Source: Thermoplasmata archaeon
GTDB lineage: Archaea; Thermoplasmatota; Thermoplasmata; Thermoplasmatales; Thermoplasmataceae
Assembly (NCBI GenBank): GCA_021821635.1
Contig: JAKACH010000012.1
Span: forward strand, 1 to 34,252
Reading direction: 5' to 3'
DNA length: 34,252 nucleotides
The position numbers and the translations under genes are program-made. The first letter of the stretch is position 1. Each line of letters starts with the position of its first letter. This document shows positions 25,505 to 34,163 of this stretch, piece by piece. The notes beneath the pieces were generated by a model that did not search any database, was not told where the DNA came from, and worked only from the letters and a program-made list of their open reading frames with translations.

Positions 25505-25762
25505 TTATTGTTTTTTAGGTCCAAAGCCTTCTGGAATAACTTTGTTTCCGATTACCCCGCTGAACCATGTAACCAGAACACCAATCCATAAAATAGTCAG
25601 TCCAAGTGCCATAATAAGTTGTGATGACTTAGTTATGGCCAATATACCAACCAGGAGACCAACCCCGACCATGAGAAAGCCTACTACATATATCACAGTG
25701 TCTGAGACGTCTATTTTACCCTTATGGATGGTGTACCCTTCCTCTAATTGTTTTTCTGCCAT
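25505..25762 (-). CDS. Two-helix membrane protein coupled to the OFA carrier
   Basis: An 85-aa protein: a hydrophilic N-terminus (MAEKQLEEGYTIHKGKIDVSD) followed by two hydrophobic helices (about 23-43 and 48-70) and a short polar tail (IPEGFGPKKQ). Its ATG overlaps the TAA stop of the carrier gene by one base (TAATG), so the two proteins are probably made in fixed ratio. I do not recognise the family. The context suggests an auxiliary subunit of the oxalate-type carrier, analogous in arrangement to the small subunits found with some MFS carriers. A function in its own right cannot be excluded. Confidence 0.75.
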   Translation of the reverse strand: MAEKQLEEGYTIHKGKIDVSDTVIYVVGFLMVGVGLLVGILAITKSSQLIMALGLTILWIGVLVTWFSGVIGNKVIPEGFGPKKQ

Positions 25763-27333
25763 TATTCAGCACCTCCTGAAACTTCGTTGGATTCGGTTAA
25801 GTCAGGCGAAGGCTGCCGCGTTGCAGTTGGTAATGGAAGACCAAGCTTCTCCCGCGCCTTATAGTATTCTTCGATCGTTGGCTTCTTCTCATAAAACCAG
25901 ACAAGGGCAGCTGCAACCAATGCAAATATGGTTGCTACCAGGAATGCAAGTATCCAGGATAGATCTGTAAATGTCACGGTTCCTGTGTATGTACCAAACA
26001 CAGCTCCCCATCCATAGCCGCTTGCAAAAACAAGCAAGGTTGTTGCTCCTATTCCACCAAATGCGCCTCCAAAGACTTTCAGCGTGTAAGGAACAGACCA
26101 GTTGGTTGCAACGTAGTTCTCACCAAAGTAGTCAGAAATAATCAGCCAGTCAAATACAAAGCATGATCCGGAAACGGCGCCTGTGAGAACTGCAAGTACC
26201 GCCCATATAATTGCCTGATGCGCGAGGCCAGCAGCCAGCACTCCGAGACCGCCTATACCCATGAGTAAGTAGAATATGGTTACCGCTTTCCTTCTGCCTA
26301 TGAAGGTCGAGATCCAACCCTGAGTTGGTCTCCCTATGCCATCCGTAAAGGCAAATCCGGCTGCACCAACAGTAAAAGCTATGCCTCCGCCGAAGCCCAT
26401 TGCTGCACCGAAAGGCGCATAGAGAGATACATTGAACAATGAAGCCGCAAGCGCAAGTGTGAAGGAAATCATCTGAGCCTTTCCCTGCCTGGTTGCAAAA
26501 AATTCCTGAGTTGTGAACTGTGCAACTGCGGGAGGGTTTTCCTTAAGCTCCCTGGATTTGGAGGTTCCAGCTGCCACAGCTAGTGGATCGACTTCAGCTG
26601 GCCACCAGTTCTTTGGCGCATCGCAAACAAGGAATGATGCAACTAGAAGACCTGCAGCGATGATAGCACCTGTCATATAAAGAATAAACTGGAAGTCACC
26701 AGGATAAAATAGGCTAGGGTCCGTGTATATTATAATGAACGGGACTGCACCATATGCCCATGCTCCATTCGCGAGACCAAGCCTCCAACCTCTCTTGTCA
26801 GGAAACCATTTTGAAATTACTCCACCGCCTGCTGCGTATCCGAGACCGGATGCAAGTCCGCCTAACATTGCGTATCCGACATATGAGATCCATGGGGAAA
26901 ATGAGTTAGCGAAGAATATATAAGAAACTATGAGCAAAGCCGATCCCAGCCAGAGCATTCTCCTCAAGGAAAGGAGTCCTCTTTCCCTTAAACGTGAAAA
27001 TATGTAAGCAGCCACAGTCGCTTCAAACAATACATACACAGTGTAGTTGAAGAAACCTTCCACGGTAGACCAACCGTAGTGGGAAATAACCAGTGAGGAA
27101 GCAGCCCCCCAGCCGTATTCCAGAACACTACCAAAGAAGAAACACATCCAAGCCCCGAGAACCATTGTCCTCCTGCTTAGTCTGTAGCCCAAGATTTTCT
27201 TGGTAACATCCTCCGGACGTTCTCCAACCCTATACTGCCTACCGTTTTTGTCCTTAAGTATACGGTATTTCCCATATGGCGATTTAATACTGCCGACGGA
27301 ACCATCTATATTACTTTCAACTATATTAAACAC
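25762..27333 (-). CDS. OFA-family MFS carrier (oxalate/formate antiporter type, OxlT-like)
   Basis: A 523-aa carrier with 12 helices. Arg335 in DGIGRPTQGW (helix 8) and Lys419 in PYTLKVFGGAFGG (helix 11) align with the Arg/Lys pair that holds the oxalate dianion in OxlT of Oxalobacter (Arg272, Lys355). A roughly 50-residue cytosolic N-terminal extension (KSPYGKYRILKDKNGRQYRVG) is not found in OxlT. The start is GTG at 27333, with GGAGG directly abutting it and a TATA-like GAATATATTTTTT 20-32 nt upstream. With the oxalate oxidoreductase operon next door it is a likely oxalate importer. Other dicarboxylates or formate remain possible. Confidence 0.82.
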   Translation of the reverse strand: MFNIVESNIDGSVGSIKSPYGKYRILKDKNGRQYRVGERPEDVTKKILGYRLSRRTMVLGAWMCFFFGSVLEYGWGAASSLVISHYGWSTVEGFFNYTVYVLFEATVAAYIFSRLRERGLLSLRRMLWLGSALLIVSYIFFANSFSPWISYVGYAMLGGLASGLGYAAGGGVISKWFPDKRGWRLGLANGAWAYGAVPFIIIYTDPSLFYPGDFQFILYMTGAIIAAGLLVASFLVCDAPKNWWPAEVDPLAVAAGTSKSRELKENPPAVAQFTTQEFFATRQGKAQMISFTLALAASLFNVSLYAPFGAAMGFGGGIAFTVGAAGFAFTDGIGRPTQGWISTFIGRRKAVTIFYLLMGIGGLGVLAAGLAHQAIIWAVLAVLTGAVSGSCFVFDWLIISDYFGENYVATNWSVPYTLKVFGGAFGGIGATTLLVFASGYGWGAVFGTYTGTVTFTDLSWILAFLVATIFALVAAALVWFYEKKPTIEEYYKAREKLGLPLPTATRQPSPDLTESNEVSGGAE

Positions 27334-28408: not shown

Positions 28409-29587
28409 ATGATGCAAACTCAAAAGCCGCATTTAATAAGACTAGAGGTGAATTATCGTGGGATTTTCCAGAAAACATTGGCTTACCATATTTCTGGAGA
28501 TGTAGTTTACGCTGCCCACAAGGAGGGAAAAACCGCGTTCTCTAATGGCAGGTACAGTGACGACCCACAGAGGAATGGTATACCGTGCGCAAACTTCGCC
28601 TATTTTTCAAAGGATCTTACTGAGGAAGACCTAGAAGCCGAGGCTAGCGCGTCCATGGATATCACGGAGGCTGAAGTTGTTGTGGTCCTAGACGACACGA
28701 TGGTGAAAGGACTTGAGCCATGGGGTGGCTATGGAATAAGACCAATCAATGAGAAGGTCGTGAAAGATGGCGTGGTGCTTATCGTGAGCAACAGGAAACC
28801 GGCTGACCTTATTGCACAGATGGAAAAGAAGAAATTCCCATATAGAATTGCAATTCTTCCAGGAGAAGCCAGCTTTGCAGGCTTGTGGTACTTCAAAGAT
28901 GACATGACAGATGTCAGGGTACTTGGCGCCATAGCAAAAGTAGCCCCTGAAATAGCATCAATTGACACAGTTGCTAATTATGTTGCCTCGAAGTACAAGA
29001 GTAAGGAAAAGGCTGCTGCTGCCAGAAAGGCATACGAGGAAGTCAAGGTATCAACGGTGAATGCAGGAGAAGGTATTGACTGGCCATATCCGAAGCCTAT
29101 TCTTCCTGGCTGGAAAGATTTTGACGAAGGCGTATATGTAAAAGGCGTTAAGAGAGGATTCCAGATGGGTCCCAGAGGTCAGAACCGGAACCCTGATTTC
29201 AAGCGTGGTACAAGTAAGACACAGAGACCTGTAGTAAGATTTGACCTGTGCACAAAGTGTACACTCTGCTGGTACGACTGCCCTGATGAGGTCTTTGACC
29301 CTACAACAGATGGTCTATACGATGTGAATTATGAGTACTGCACCGGGTGTGGCAGATGTGCAGAGGTATGTCCTGTTGAGGATTGCATCGTCATGGTCGA
29401 TGAACTTAAGTTTGAGAACCAGGATTCACCGTACGTCTTGTACAAGAAGGATCCGGAGAATTACGTCAAGTGGGCAGAAGACAAGAAGGGCAAGGAAAGA
29501 CTCATGCCAAGTCCTGTAACGGGAAAGGGAAGCACTGTTTCCAAGGTTGAGACTCCAAAGCCTTTCAAGAAGGGAGTGGTGAAATAA
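28409..29587 (+). CDS. Oxalate oxidoreductase-type 2-oxoacid:ferredoxin oxidoreductase, fused gamma-delta subunit
   Basis: A 392-aa fusion. Residues about 10-200 form the gamma domain (RLEVNYRGIFQKTLAYHIS; later EAEVVVVLDDTMVKG). Residues 270-340 are a two-[4Fe-4S] ferredoxin delta domain, with CTKCTLCWYDCP from Cys281 and CTGCGRCAEVCP from Cys311. The Fe-S part carries electrons from thiamine diphosphate to external ferredoxin. In most archaeal pyruvate enzymes gamma and delta are separate; the fused form with separate alpha and beta is the make-up of Moorella oxalate oxidoreductase. AGAGGA precedes the ATG at a normal ribosome-binding distance. It is the first gene of the operon, 1 nt before alpha. 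Confidence 0.85.
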   Translation: MMQTQKPHLIRLEVNYRGIFQKTLAYHISGDVVYAAHKEGKTAFSNGRYSDDPQRNGIPCANFAYFSKDLTEEDLEAEASASMDITEAEVVVVLDDTMVKGLEPWGGYGIRPINEKVVKDGVVLIVSNRKPADLIAQMEKKKFPYRIAILPGEASFAGLWYFKDDMTDVRVLGAIAKVAPEIASIDTVANYVASKYKSKEKAAAARKAYEEVKVSTVNAGEGIDWPYPKPILPGWKDFDEGVYVKGVKRGFQMGPRGQNRNPDFKRGTSKTQRPVVRFDLCTKCTLCWYDCPDEVFDPTTDGLYDVNYEYCTGCGRCAEVCPVEDCIVMVDELKFENQDSPYVLYKKDPENYVKWAEDKKGKERLMPSPVTGKGSTVSKVETPKPFKKGVVK

Positions 29588-29588
29588 A

Positions 29589-30797
29589 ATGGTTGTTAAA
29601 CAGGAAGAAAAATCCGTATTTGATCGCGAAGAATTGATGACTGGGACAGATGCAGTAGCAGAAGCTGTGAAGCTTGTCGACGTGGATGTCTTTGCTGCTT
29701 ATCCAATCAGGCCTTATACAGGCGTTATGGACAGGCTCGCAAGGTTCATTGCGAACGGCGACCTTGATGCAGAGTACATTGTTGCAGATGGCGAGCACTC
29801 ACAGTTTGAAATAGGAAAACATGCTTCGTCTGTCGGTGCAAGAGCGTTCGTTGGAAGCAGTGGAGTAGGATGGTTGTATGCAATGGAATCGATAGGAGTG
29901 ACAGCTACAGACAGGCTTCCGCTTGTTGCTCTAGTGGGAAACAGAGCTCTGGATGATCCTGGTGCATTTGGTGTAGAGCATAATGATGCACTGCTTGTCA
30001 GGGATCTTGGCTGGCTCCTTTGCTGGGCATCAACCGCTCAGGAAGCCCTGGACACAACTTTAATTGCCTACAGAGTGGCAGAGGATCCCAAAGTAAGAAT
30101 GCCGGCGGCCGTCGCAATGGATGGCGGTTACCTTACGCATTCACAACATATGGTTCGCGTCCCTACGAAAGAAGCTGTTCGTGATTTCCTTCCGACATAT
30201 GATCTGGGAAACAGAAGAATGCACCCAGACAACCCCGTATCTATTGCACCCCAGGTCAATGAAGACTGGGTAATGGAACTCAGAAGACAGAATTATGAAG
30301 CGGCAAAAAGATCCAGGAAAGTCATCACTTCCGCCTATGAGGAGTATAACAGCATATTCCACTCGGATTATGAGGATCCATTCATCGAAGAAACAAACGT
30401 CGAGGATGCAGATACAGTTCTAGTGGGAATGGGCAGCGCTGCAGTGGTAGCCAGATCAGTTGCAAATGAAATGAGAAGGGAAGGCAAAAAGGTAGGTTTC
30501 CTGAAAATAAGATGGTACCGTCCATACCCGACGGATGAGATCAGGAAGGCTCTTAGCAATGTTTCAAATGTTGGCATAATAGAGAGAAACTTTGCAATGG
30601 GTGCACCTGATGATGGAGCGATAACCATGCATGACCTGCAGTCCGCACTGTATGACAGCAAGAACCACCCAAGAGTTGTTGATTTCATTGCGGGTCTTGG
30701 TGGAAGGGAAATTTCAAAGAAAGAAGTGAGGAAGATGTTCGAAATGACAGCCGACAAGAAGTCTCCTAAGGTTTCGTGGATCGGTTTGAGGGAGTGA
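29589..30797 (+). CDS. Oxalate oxidoreductase-type alpha subunit (substrate-binding)
   Basis: A 402-aa alpha subunit of the PFOR superfamily; it supplies the pyrimidine side of thiamine diphosphate and the substrate pocket. Glu69 in DGEHSQ is the cofactor-activating Glu. The usual YPITP reads YPIRP with Arg41 in place of Thr. The next loop, NRALDDPGAF, carries Arg119, Asp122 and Phe127. These four sit exactly 10 positions after the residues I recall from the Moorella oxalate oxidoreductase structure (Arg31, Arg109, Asp112, Phe117), where they bind oxalate and form the switch loop. Pyruvate enzymes have Thr at the first position. Oxalate is therefore the predicted substrate. It begins 1 nt after the gamma-delta stop. 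Confidence 0.88.
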   Translation: MVVKQEEKSVFDREELMTGTDAVAEAVKLVDVDVFAAYPIRPYTGVMDRLARFIANGDLDAEYIVADGEHSQFEIGKHASSVGARAFVGSSGVGWLYAMESIGVTATDRLPLVALVGNRALDDPGAFGVEHNDALLVRDLGWLLCWASTAQEALDTTLIAYRVAEDPKVRMPAAVAMDGGYLTHSQHMVRVPTKEAVRDFLPTYDLGNRRMHPDNPVSIAPQVNEDWVMELRRQNYEAAKRSRKVITSAYEEYNSIFHSDYEDPFIEETNVEDADTVLVGMGSAAVVARSVANEMRREGKKVGFLKIRWYRPYPTDEIRKALSNVSNVGIIERNFAMGAPDDGAITMHDLQSALYDSKNHPRVVDFIAGLGGREISKKEVRKMFEMTADKKSPKVSWIGLRE

Positions 30798-30812
30798 AGG
30801 AGGTAGAATAAA

Positions 30813-31808
30813 ATGGTTGAAGAAGTTGAAGAATTTAAGAATGCAAATCTGTACAAAGGTGTACACGCTGTTGACCTAGAGGAGCTTTACACATCCGGGC
30901 ACAGGACGTGCCAGGGATGCGAGAGCGCGCTTGTAATGAGAGACTTTGTCAAGGCATCCGGCCCCAGAACAGTTGTGACAGGAGCCACTGGATGCATGTA
31001 TGTAGCGAATACCTCGTACATGACAACACCCTGGATTGTGCCATGGATGCACACGCAGCTGGCAGCAGGAGGAGCTTCGGCGGTTGGTATGGCTGCGGGC
31101 CTTAAAGCACTAATGAGGAAAGGAAAGATCCCGAAGGAGAAGATCAACGTTATTAACTTCTCGGGTGACCTTGGAGCAGGCGATGAAGGCCTCGGAGGTC
31201 TTTCAGGGGCTATGCAAAGCCCGTATGATCTTCTAGTTATCGTCTACGACAATGAGTCTGCTGCGAACACAGATATACAGGCATCTGGGCTTACAACATG
31301 GGGAGCCCAGACCACTTTCAGCCCAACTGGCCCTGCAAAAAGAATATTGCACGAAAGATGGAAGAAGAATCTTGCCGCAATGATGGCTATTGGCCACCCA
31401 AATGTCAAGTACGTTGCGACCTCTTGTGCTACATTCCCTCCAACTGACTACATGAACAAGGTAAAGAAGGCTCTCAGCATAGGTGGACCAACTCTCATTC
31501 ACACAATAGACCCGTGCCCCAAGGGATGGGATTATCACCCAAGATATTCACATGTACTGGGAGAACTTGCAGTCAAGACAGGCATATTTGCCGACTATGA
31601 AATAGTCAATGGCGAGGTCAGATATACATACGACCTTAGGAACAAGAAGAGAACCCCTGTAAGGGAATACTTGGAGAAACAGGGTAGGTTCAGCCACTTC
31701 CTTGACGAGGACTATGAATACGTTCAGGCAAAAGTAGATGAGATGTGGGATGAGTGGGAATTGCCGGGTATCCTGCCTATAAAGGCTGGCCTGAAAGTTA
31801 AAAAATAA
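30813..31808 (+). CDS. Oxalate oxidoreductase-type beta subunit (thiamine diphosphate and [4Fe-4S])
   Basis: A 331-aa beta subunit. Four cysteines for the proximal [4Fe-4S] cluster are present: CQGC (Cys33, Cys36), GATGCMY (Cys61) and ATSCAT (Cys205). The thiamine-diphosphate/Mg site is SGDLGAGDEGLGG followed by YDNESAANTDIQ. Here GDLGAGDEG departs from the GDGDxYDIG of pyruvate enzymes, and the Asn of NT remains. A strong ribosome-binding site GGAGGTAG precedes ATG 30813, 15 nt after the alpha stop. A T-rich stretch after the TAA probably ends the operon. Together with the other two subunits it would split oxalate into two CO2 and reduce ferredoxin. Confidence 0.86.
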   Translation: MVEEVEEFKNANLYKGVHAVDLEELYTSGHRTCQGCESALVMRDFVKASGPRTVVTGATGCMYVANTSYMTTPWIVPWMHTQLAAGGASAVGMAAGLKALMRKGKIPKEKINVINFSGDLGAGDEGLGGLSGAMQSPYDLLVIVYDNESAANTDIQASGLTTWGAQTTFSPTGPAKRILHERWKKNLAAMMAIGHPNVKYVATSCATFPPTDYMNKVKKALSIGGPTLIHTIDPCPKGWDYHPRYSHVLGELAVKTGIFADYEIVNGEVRYTYDLRNKKRTPVREYLEKQGRFSHFLDEDYEYVQAKVDEMWDEWELPGILPIKAGLKVKK

Positions 31809-31838: not shown

Positions 31839-32672
31839 TTATACCTTGGCTTCTAATTTCTTTTCTGTGTTCATAAATGAATAATCGCTCGCCAGAAGCA
31901 CGTTGAATGTTTTTCTTTCTATTGATCTGAAATGATAGCTGAGAGTACTTTTTGGAATCTGGAGTTTCTTACTGAGTTCAGACATGTTAATTCTCCTTGG
32001 CCACTCAAAATAGCCATTATCCATCGCATTTAACAGAATGGTGCTTTCAGTTTCACTCAGTCTGTTAATAATATTCATAAGATTAAGCTGATAGAAAATA
32101 GAAGGATAATCGGAAATGAATTTCTTCTGCGATATGCTCTGAATTGATAACACAGTTGTGTTCTCATCGTTAATTGCCTCAGCTTTTAAAGGCGACCCAT
32201 TGCTTATGTAAAACCATTTTTCGACACCGTTATGCACAACAACAGGATGTATCCTGAAACCAATGTTTCCAAGTTTATTATACATGGAAGTCGCATCTGA
32301 AGTATAGAAAAGATTTGCCATTGCCCCCTGTTTGGATATTACTGTAAAGTTCTTAATTTGCGGCCTGCTGGAAAAGTATCTCAACGCTTCATCCAGTTTT
32401 TCCTCGCTTGGCGAATAAAAAAATGAGAACATTGTTTGCCTAGACCCATCAAACGAGGTGTGCATTATCAGGATGTAGAGTTTCCTGAATATCTGGCTGG
32501 TCTCAATATGAGGGCAATCATTCTGCTTTACTGTTATTTCTGAAATTATCGTATTTTCTAATTCCGATTGAAGTATTAAATCTATCTCTTGACACTTATG
32601 TTTATCATTTATAATATTCGACCGATACAAGTATATTTTGGAGTGCCTTCTAAGTAGCGTCATATAGCTCAT
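31839..32672 (-). CDS. HTH_10 (bacterio-opsin activator type) transcriptional regulator
   Basis: A 277-aa protein. Residues 205-254 are a textbook HTH_10: LSETESTILLNAMDNGYFEWPRR, then MSELSKKLQIPKSTLSYHFRSIERK. About 200 N-terminal residues form an unrecognised, mostly alpha/beta region that is presumably the sensor; no GAF or PAS signature is seen. The gene lies between the oxalate oxidoreductase operon and the second carrier on the opposite strand, which suggests control of one or both. ATG 32672 is the first codon of the open frame; an ATG three codons later is possible. Confidence 0.85.
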   Translation of the reverse strand: MSYMTLLRRHSKIYLYRSNIINDKHKCQEIDLILQSELENTIISEITVKQNDCPHIETSQIFRKLYILIMHTSFDGSRQTMFSFFYSPSEEKLDEALRYFSSRPQIKNFTVISKQGAMANLFYTSDATSMYNKLGNIGFRIHPVVVHNGVEKWFYISNGSPLKAEAINDENTTVLSIQSISQKKFISDYPSIFYQLNLMNIINRLSETESTILLNAMDNGYFEWPRRINMSELSKKLQIPKSTLSYHFRSIERKTFNVLLASDYSFMNTEKKLEAKV

Positions 32673-32858: not shown

Positions 32859-34163
32859 ATGACTGAGGAAACTGAAAAGCAAAAACAGATGGGGACTAGA
32901 ATTCCCCTTTGGTTGATTGTATTTAGCATGATTATAGCGATGGTATTTGTTAGCCCATATGAATATTCATGGTCTCTGTTTACTGCACCCCTTGGAAAAT
33001 TGTTTGGAATAAGTGCTACTGGATACATGATTTCCACAACGTTCTCCATATACATTATAGTGCAAGCATTGACGATGTTTTTCTCAGGGCGCTATCTTGA
33101 CAAGAGAAGACACCTTACACCCTATTTTGTGGTGATTGCAGGTGTGCTGACCAGTCTTGGTTGGATCCTGAGTTCATTTACATCGAAGTCCACTGGATTG
33201 TACTATTTGTATGTTGTTTACGGTATTGGAAGCCTTGGACCAGGAATAGTGTACGGAGTGGGCATATCGACAGCATTGAAGTGGTTTCATGGAAAGACAA
33301 GAGGGCTTGCAGTAGGCTTGATTGATCTCGGCTTTGGCGCAGGATCTTTCGGAGTCTCTCCTCTTGTGTTGTATATAATTAAGAATTACAATTTCCATGC
33401 TGCATTCTTGTACGTTGGTCTTTTGATGCTAGTCATCATACCGTTCGGGATGTTGGTAAGATATCCACCAGCAGATTATGTCCCTGCAGGCAAGACAGCA
33501 GCTGAGGCTGAAGTTGTCAGGAAAAGAGTGAAGAAGAGCGGGCTTGAAGATAATCCAAGACAGATGGTATCAAGATGGCAATTCTGGGCCATTTATATTG
33601 GATTCTTCTTTGTTGCCGGTGCTTATCTTGGGATAGTCGGGAAGCTACCTTCCATAGGCTTAACAGTGACAGGAGTAGCAGTTGCTGGATATATTGCAGT
33701 ATTTGTTTTCCCACTTTCAAATGGTATCGGAAGATTTGTTTCAGGTGTGGTTTCTGACTTCCTTGGAAGAAGAGAATCGATGCTACTGTTCTTTGGTATC
33801 GCGGGAATTGGCCTTCTTGCGTTGTTTTCGATGAAGTCTGCTGCGGCTTTTGTCGTGGTCATTATAATAGTTGCGTTCTGTTCCGGGCCACTATTTACTC
33901 TATGGCCCTCAATGGTAGGAGACTACTTTGGGGAGAAGAAGTCAGGCGGTAACTATGGTCTGGTTTATACTGCGAAAGCTATGGCGGGATTGTTTGCCGG
34001 GTACGGATTTGCAGTCTATTATACAGATTACGGAGTACATAACTCTCTGCTACTGACTGGTGCAATGATGATCATAGCAGCACTAATTGGATTCTCAATT
34101 GTTGTACCTAAGGTCAAGCAACATATGAATGCCGCCAAAGCAACAGCCCCTGGTAAACAATAA
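32859..34163 (+). CDS. OFA-family MFS carrier (oxalate/formate antiporter type, OxlT-like)
   Basis: A 434-aa, 12-helix carrier of normal OxlT length (418 aa in Oxalobacter). The start of helix 1 has VSPYEYSWSLFTAPL, the helix 2-3 loop GRYLDKRRHL and helix 4 GIGSLGPGIVYGVGISTALKWF. Arg292 in NGIGRFVSGVVSDFLGR and Lys373 in YTAKAMAGLFAGYG match OxlT Arg272 and Lys355, the two residues that neutralise oxalate. GGAGG lies 11 nt before ATG 32859 and GATATTTAAT about 25-34 nt before it. Adjacent to the oxalate oxidoreductase operon and its regulator, it is the better candidate for the main oxalate importer. Oxalate/formate exchange or uptake of another carboxylate is possible. Confidence 0.88.
   Translation: MTEETEKQKQMGTRIPLWLIVFSMIIAMVFVSPYEYSWSLFTAPLGKLFGISATGYMISTTFSIYIIVQALTMFFSGRYLDKRRHLTPYFVVIAGVLTSLGWILSSFTSKSTGLYYLYVVYGIGSLGPGIVYGVGISTALKWFHGKTRGLAVGLIDLGFGAGSFGVSPLVLYIIKNYNFHAAFLYVGLLMLVIIPFGMLVRYPPADYVPAGKTAAEAEVVRKRVKKSGLEDNPRQMVSRWQFWAIYIGFFFVAGAYLGIVGKLPSIGLTVTGVAVAGYIAVFVFPLSNGIGRFVSGVVSDFLGRRESMLLFFGIAGIGLLALFSMKSAAAFVVVIIIVAFCSGPLFTLWPSMVGDYFGEKKSGGNYGLVYTAKAMAGLFAGYGFAVYYTDYGVHNSLLLTGAMMIIAALIGFSIVVPKVKQHMNAAKATAPGKQ

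Follow-up and report, generated by a model that had tools for sequence, protein, structure and literature searches.

A putative oxalate:ferredoxin oxidoreductase of a new subfamily encoded in a Thermoplasmata archaeon

Results

Gene organization of the locus

We analyzed a 34,252-nucleotide stretch of DNA (the window; contig JAKACH010000012.1 of assembly GCA_021821635.1) from an acid-loving Thermoplasmata archaeon, which contains a three-gene operon that probably encodes an oxalate:ferredoxin oxidoreductase, or oxalate oxidoreductase (OOR). The reading frames of the γδ fusion, α and β subunits are all intact and are separated by gaps of 1 and 15 bases (Table 1). In addition to the two α subunit domains, Pfam assigns the C domain of thiamine diphosphate (ThDP) enzymes to the β subunit and a dicluster ferredoxin domain to the γδ subunit. 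The ferredoxin domain spans residues ~264-332 and contains eight Cys residues in two CxxCxxCxxxC motifs, most of them invariant. In the β subunit, Cys33, Cys36, Cys61 and Cys235 are the ligands of the proximal [4Fe-4S] cluster, and the ThDP motif reads GDL in place of GDG (YDNESAANTDIQ). The α subunit carries a YPIRP motif with Arg41, as well as Arg119 and the plug loop RALDDPGAFG (residues 119-128).

Table 1. Operon genes and flanking genes in the window
Feature	Length (aa)	Position	Strand	Basis
γδ fusion subunit	392	28409..29587	+	γ domain + 2x[4Fe-4S] ferredoxin domain
α subunit	402	29589..30797	+	POR_N + PFOR_II domains
β subunit	331	30813..31808	+	ThDP-binding, proximal [4Fe-4S] Cys
Divergent OFA-like major facilitator superfamily (MFS) transporter, candidate carboxylate carrier	523	25762..27333	-	SfMCT, TIGR00890 matches
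HTH_10 (Bat-like) DNA-binding protein, probable dedicated regulator		31839..32672	-	PF04967 5.7e-16
OFA-family MFS transporter, candidate oxalate carrier	434	32859..34163	+	TIGR00890 top model, OxlT top structure

The operon has the broad OOR layout of three genes, a γδ fusion and ligands for three [4Fe-4S] clusters. A preliminary description of this DNA had proposed that both the three-gene layout and the fusion match OOR. The gene order γδ/α/β is indeed shared with the Moorella loci (for example L091: 6014-6958, 6974-8167 and 8200-9141). The fusion is frequent but not universal among OORs; several Clostridia-type loci have a separate γ gene.

Similarity to Moorella thermoacetica OOR

The OOR of Moorella thermoacetica (MtOOR; PDB 5C4I, 5EXD and 5EXE; EC 1.2.7.10), which has the same subunit set, is the top structural match of each subunit. 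The α subunit matches 5c4i_A with an E-value of 2.8e-94, compared with 5.5e-57 for the pyruvate:ferredoxin oxidoreductase (POR, also PFOR) of Methanosarcina acetivorans (9bt4), and the β subunit matches 5c4i_C with 8.8e-77, compared with 3.5e-54 for 9bt4_C. For the γδ subunit 5c4i_B is the top PDB match by sequence, the γ half matching weakly. In a fold search with its AlphaFold2 model (pLDDT 85.3), the first eight PDB matches are all Moorella OOR chains, ahead of any PFOR, with a best E-value of 2.6e-22 and TMt up to 0.85. The top NCBIfam model is also that of OOR for all three subunits (NF045790 for δ, NF045791 for α and NF045792 for β). Nevertheless, the two enzymes differ. The α subunits are ~41% identical, the plug-loop residues Pro113 and Asp116 of MtOOR are replaced by Asp and Ala, the β motif NESYANTG becomes NESAANTD, and the C-terminus of the γδ subunit is extended.

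Residues that distinguish OOR from pyruvate-type enzymes

Alignment with 5c4i_A places Arg41, Arg119, Asp122 and Phe127 of the α subunit on MtOOR Arg31, Arg109, Asp112 and Phe117, at an offset of exactly +10, as the preliminary description had stated. Arg41, Asp122 and Phe127 are invariant in 72/72 OOR-like α subunits and occur in 0/30 pyruvate/2-ketoisovalerate-type ones. Arg119 is invariant in both sets and hence has no diagnostic value. More generally, we called a column diagnostic if at least 97% of the OOR-like sequences share one residue that is found in less than 10% of the pyruvate/2-ketoisovalerate oxidoreductase (VOR)-type sequences. There are 14 such columns in α, including Arg31, Asp112, Gly115, Phe117 and Gly118, and 9 in β; our sequences have the OOR-like residue at all 23. 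The gathering of the 72 α subunits relied partly on the string YPIRPYTG, and among the α diagnostic columns only Arg31 and Tyr33 were in a search pattern. YPIRP has been described as a motif unique to OOR (PMC5020499). Archaeal PORs (PorABGD, including the M. acetivorans enzyme 9BT4 and the Thermoplasmata PorA paralogues) share the fold, the ThDP/ferredoxin chemistry and the Arg109 equivalent. However, they have YPITP rather than YPIRP, their plug loop ends in (N/S)(I/V)W rather than GAFG, and their γ and δ genes are separate where seen.

Phylogeny and distribution

A search of 84,980 species genomes yielded 147 confirmed relatives, the best 80 of which were used. In the α tree, the 72 OOR-like sequences are split from the pyruvate/VOR-type sequences by a branch with an SH-aLRT support of 100. 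The OOR-like side contains five well-supported groups: Moorella-type OORs (mostly Bacillota), a crenarchaeal/bathyarchaeal group, Methanomethylicota, Proteobacteria and the clade of our sequence (the query clade), to which the Proteobacterial group is sister. Members of the query clade come from metagenome-assembled genomes (MAGs) of Thermoplasmata and from Nitrososphaerota, Acidobacteriota, Chloroflexota and Myxococcota. The β tree recovers the same groups, and in both trees our sequence lies on the OOR-like side, outside the Moorella-type clade. Thermoplasmata PorA paralogues, VorA-model (2-ketoisovalerate) sequences and M. acetivorans PorA are all on the opposite side of the α tree (support 100). 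A tree constrained to place the query clade and the Proteobacterial group among the pyruvate/VOR-type sequences was rejected by the approximately unbiased (AU) test (delta lnL 177, p-AU 9.7e-40). A position of α within the pyruvate or branched-chain enzymes, which the preliminary description had named as the refuting outcome, was thus recovered in neither tree nor supported by the AU test.

Within the class the gene is patchy (9/300 genomes, 5/91 genera), yet it is present in four of five congeners, which suggests horizontal spread. Contamination or a binning error is excluded, as archaeal genes (RFC large subunit, TYW1) neighbor the operon and the gene order is kept in the congeners (L037 and L038).

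Clade-specific substitutions in the active site

The plug loop differs between the groups. Almost all Moorella-type sequences (27 in total) have LDPPGDF, the crenarchaeal and Methanomethylicota sequences have LDDPGNF, and all 33 sequences of the query clade and the Proteobacterial group have LDDPGAF. Position 116 is therefore Asp only in the Moorella type, Asn in the other archaea and Ala in the last two groups, while an acid occupies position 113 in every OOR-like clade except the Moorella type. In the β subunit, exactly the query clade (all 26 β subunits examined) combines GDL/I in place of GDG with Ala in place of Tyr150, which looks like a packing (size) swap. The change of NTGIQ to NTDIQ marks exactly the two groups with Ala at position 116; the new Asp, at the position of MtOOR residue 145, is Asp154 in our sequence, two residues past Asn152. 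Since each of these correlations rests on one or two events in the tree, they suggest compensation rather than prove it.

Flanking transporters and regulator

The operon lies between two transporter genes of the oxalate/formate antiporter (OFA) type, and our search of the assembly (~80% complete) detected no others of this type. TIGR00890 is the top family of the downstream transporter (286.9 bits, cut-off 374.85), which also scores under the TIGR04259 cut-off; its top solved match is the oxalate/formate antiporter OxlT of Oxalobacter formigenes (8HPJ/8HPK). The upstream transporter scores 94.3 bits with SfMCT and 82.5 bits with TIGR00890, both under cut-off. Its gene adjoins the operon in the congener locus L038 and lies downstream of the operon in L037. 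Arg272 and Lys355 of OxlT bind oxalate (PMC10070484). Both residues are kept in the two transporters, whereas the lactate transporter 6g9x has Cys at position 355. Elsewhere, OFA genes are found beside OOR-like operons in L047 (Nitrososphaerota, divergent), in ~10 Moorella-type loci and in the crenarchaeal loci L083, L090 and L108, where the gene lies 14-94 bp downstream of β on the same strand. Across the related loci, every OFA neighbor that covers both sites has the Arg and Lys. TctA/TctC carboxylate carriers take their place at some Proteobacterial and bacterial query-clade loci.

The HTH_10 gene sits between β and the downstream OFA gene. A related regulator gene adjoins the operon in 10 query-clade loci, and the L040 and L046 copies are HTH_10 proteins too. 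The HTH_10 regulator, a candidate oxalate-responsive archaeal regulator, is retained next to the operon both in Thermoplasmata and in a Nitrososphaerales MAG.

Other genes in the genome and at related loci

Apart from the operon, a PorA-like gene with a pyruvate-type loop motif lies on contig 54 (C54), and the genome also encodes a haem-copper oxidase (COX1). No Frc gene was found in the genome and the match to the Oxc model reached only 100 of 739 bits, which is not convincing; an oxalyl-CoA route was therefore rejected.

Several other genes accompany the operons of relatives. In 25 Moorella-type loci (L091:3631-5853 and 24 others), the operon has upstream of it, on its own strand, a gene for a CDC48-family AAA ATPase that passes the TIGR01243 cut-off and contains CDC48_N; the window has none. 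The Methanomethylicota loci (L073-L079) encode, ahead of the operon, proteins of the Pup-ligase family (PF03136) and a barrel-like protein of 95 aa, with two PF03136 proteins in L074:2362-5888. In 5 of 9 Proteobacterial loci (L062-L068), a GltD-like pyridine-nucleotide flavoprotein is encoded close to the operon and may transfer electrons from ferredoxin to NAD(P). In L070:9354-13834 the operon is followed by an NADH-dehydrogenase-like and molybdopterin subunit pair resembling formate dehydrogenase. GGT-family genes occur in the vicinity of three loci of the query clade and three of the Moorella type. We make no claim of a link to oxamate amidohydrolase, as the one query-clade protein examined (L061) is only distantly similar to HpxW (5hft), and the Moorella-type protein (L088) has 2nlz as its nearest match. 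In L013 (G011:C2), from a low-completeness genome, the operon has repeated frameshifts that look like assembly or sequencing errors.

Discussion

Based on these comparisons, the product of the three genes is probably an oxalate:ferredoxin oxidoreductase that represents a new OOR subfamily, with oxalate as the likely substrate. CO2 and reduced ferredoxin would be the products of a predicted CoA-independent oxidation. The trees, the AU test, the PDB matches, the 23 diagnostic positions, the flanking transporters and the separate PorA-like gene all support the earlier proposal of an OOR-type enzyme rather than a pyruvate or branched-chain one. The enzyme is, however, not an orthologue of the Moorella type, and it is not a lone archaeal case, as there are further archaeal OOR-like clades in Methanomethylicota, crenarchaea and Bathyarchaeota.

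A number of observations weigh against the OOR assignment. All three subunits fall below the NCBIfam OOR cut-offs: 373.8 against 500 bits for α, 327.1 against 590 bits for β, and 102.6 against 230 bits for γδ, over residues 6-336. Moorella-type α subunits pass the NF045791 cut-off, and the other archaeal and Proteobacterial α subunits fail it as well. Asp116 of MtOOR, which together with Arg31 was described as important for the bait-and-switch mechanism (PMC5020499), is Ala126 in our α subunit. The β subunit has lost the GDG motif and the Tyr of YDNESYANT, which is Ala. The downstream OFA protein scores almost equally with OxlT (8hpj, E-value 8e-39) and the lactate transporter (6g9x, 8.2e-38), and both transporters have Glu at the position of OxlT Gln34, a residue described as strictly conserved across OFA proteins (PMC10070484). 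No OFA gene adjoins the operon in the related Thermoplasmata loci L039-L041. The query clade and the Proteobacterial group may also be the first branch of the OOR-like set: a constraint placing them with POR against the other OOR-like sequences, which shifts the root within that set only, was not rejected (p-AU 0.41). As the enzyme lacks Asp116 and scores below the cut-offs, we do not count it among the Moorella-type OORs but treat it as a new subfamily within the OOR superfamily.

The strongest rival explanation is that an enzyme of the OOR lineage has shifted to another small C2-C3 acid, such as glyoxylate, oxamate, mesoxalate or a tartronate-type compound, imported by the flanking carriers. 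The plug-loop and ThDP-site changes would then reflect the new substrate; throughout the query clade, Ala replaces Asp116, and in the β subunit GDL replaces GDG and Asp replaces Gly145. The closeness of the OFA neighbors to lactate transporters, their Glu at Gln34, the TctA/TctC carriers beside some relatives, and a CoA ligase and an HpcH/HpaI aldolase encoded upstream in two Proteobacterial loci fit such a shift. On the other hand, the equivalents of Arg31, Arg109, Asp112 and Phe117 and the remaining OOR-diagnostic positions are all kept, and OFA carriers with Arg272 and Lys355 recur in distant lineages. The crenarchaeal and Methanomethylicota enzymes lack Asp116 as well, and the crenarchaeal ones have the OFA gene close downstream in the same direction. 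We regard a different acid as unlikely, though worth keeping in mind.

The Pfam domains, which are those of POR, and the PorA_Arch score of α (351.7 bits), which is near that of the OOR model, would fit an ordinary 2-oxoacid:ferredoxin oxidoreductase for pyruvate or branched-chain substrates in which the change from Thr to Arg is incidental. The trees and the AU test contradict this explanation and we count it as refuted phylogenetically; the Arg in place of the Thr of YPITP is accompanied by OOR-like residues at all diagnostic positions, and a pyruvate-type α subunit is encoded elsewhere in the genome. It is very improbable. We give just as little credence to a degenerate or inactive 2-oxoacid:ferredoxin oxidoreductase. 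The altered ThDP motif and the Tyr to Ala change in all query-clade β subunits examined could be taken as signs of decay, but they are fixed across many phyla and co-occur like a size swap, the catalytic Glu, the Mg-binding Asp/Asn and the cluster Cys residues are kept, and the reading frames of the congeners are intact.

In the mechanism that we propose for an OOR of the new subfamily, the OFA-type transporter would import oxalate, which would be held by Arg41 and Arg119 of the α subunit. At the α/β interface, ThDP, bound by the β subunit with Mg2+, would attack one oxalate carboxylate. The first CO2 would leave and carboxy-ThDP would remain, to be oxidized in two one-electron steps with release of the second CO2 without CoA. 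Electrons would pass from the β [4Fe-4S] cluster through the two clusters of the γδ ferredoxin domain to an external ferredoxin, and probably feed respiration or biosynthesis. In MtOOR, a movement of the plug loop swaps Asp116 into the site and triggers decarboxylation. Because our loop has Asp112, Asp113 and Ala116 (MtOOR numbering), and the β subunit has a new Asp after Asn152, we propose that the switch acid may be relocated, with α Asp113 or β Asp145 taking over the role of Asp116. A broader proposal, in which we have about even confidence, is that a widespread and previously undescribed subfamily of oxalate:ferredoxin oxidoreductases in archaea and non-acetogen bacteria, present here alongside a haem-copper oxidase, has its bait-and-switch acid at α Asp113 and/or β Asp145 and a modified ThDP motif. 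It would provide a direct route from oxalate to ferredoxin in acid-mine Thermoplasmata, marine Proteobacteria and Nitrososphaerota.

To our knowledge, studies of OOR have been confined to Moorella. Consistent with the novelty claimed in the preliminary description, the open papers searched contain no report of an archaeal OOR. As all three subunits score under the curated OOR cut-offs, automatic annotation would not name OOR and, as that description had anticipated, would call the enzyme a pyruvate or 2-oxoacid oxidoreductase. A conserved family left under that name by current models would gain a function. Natural variants with Ala or Asn in place of Asp116, and the changes that possibly compensate for this, would allow the proposed bait-and-switch mechanism to be tested directly. 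Oxalate is an abundant metal chelator. If our proposal is true, it would be a direct low-potential electron source for archaea of acid mine drainage and for their relatives in soil and sea.

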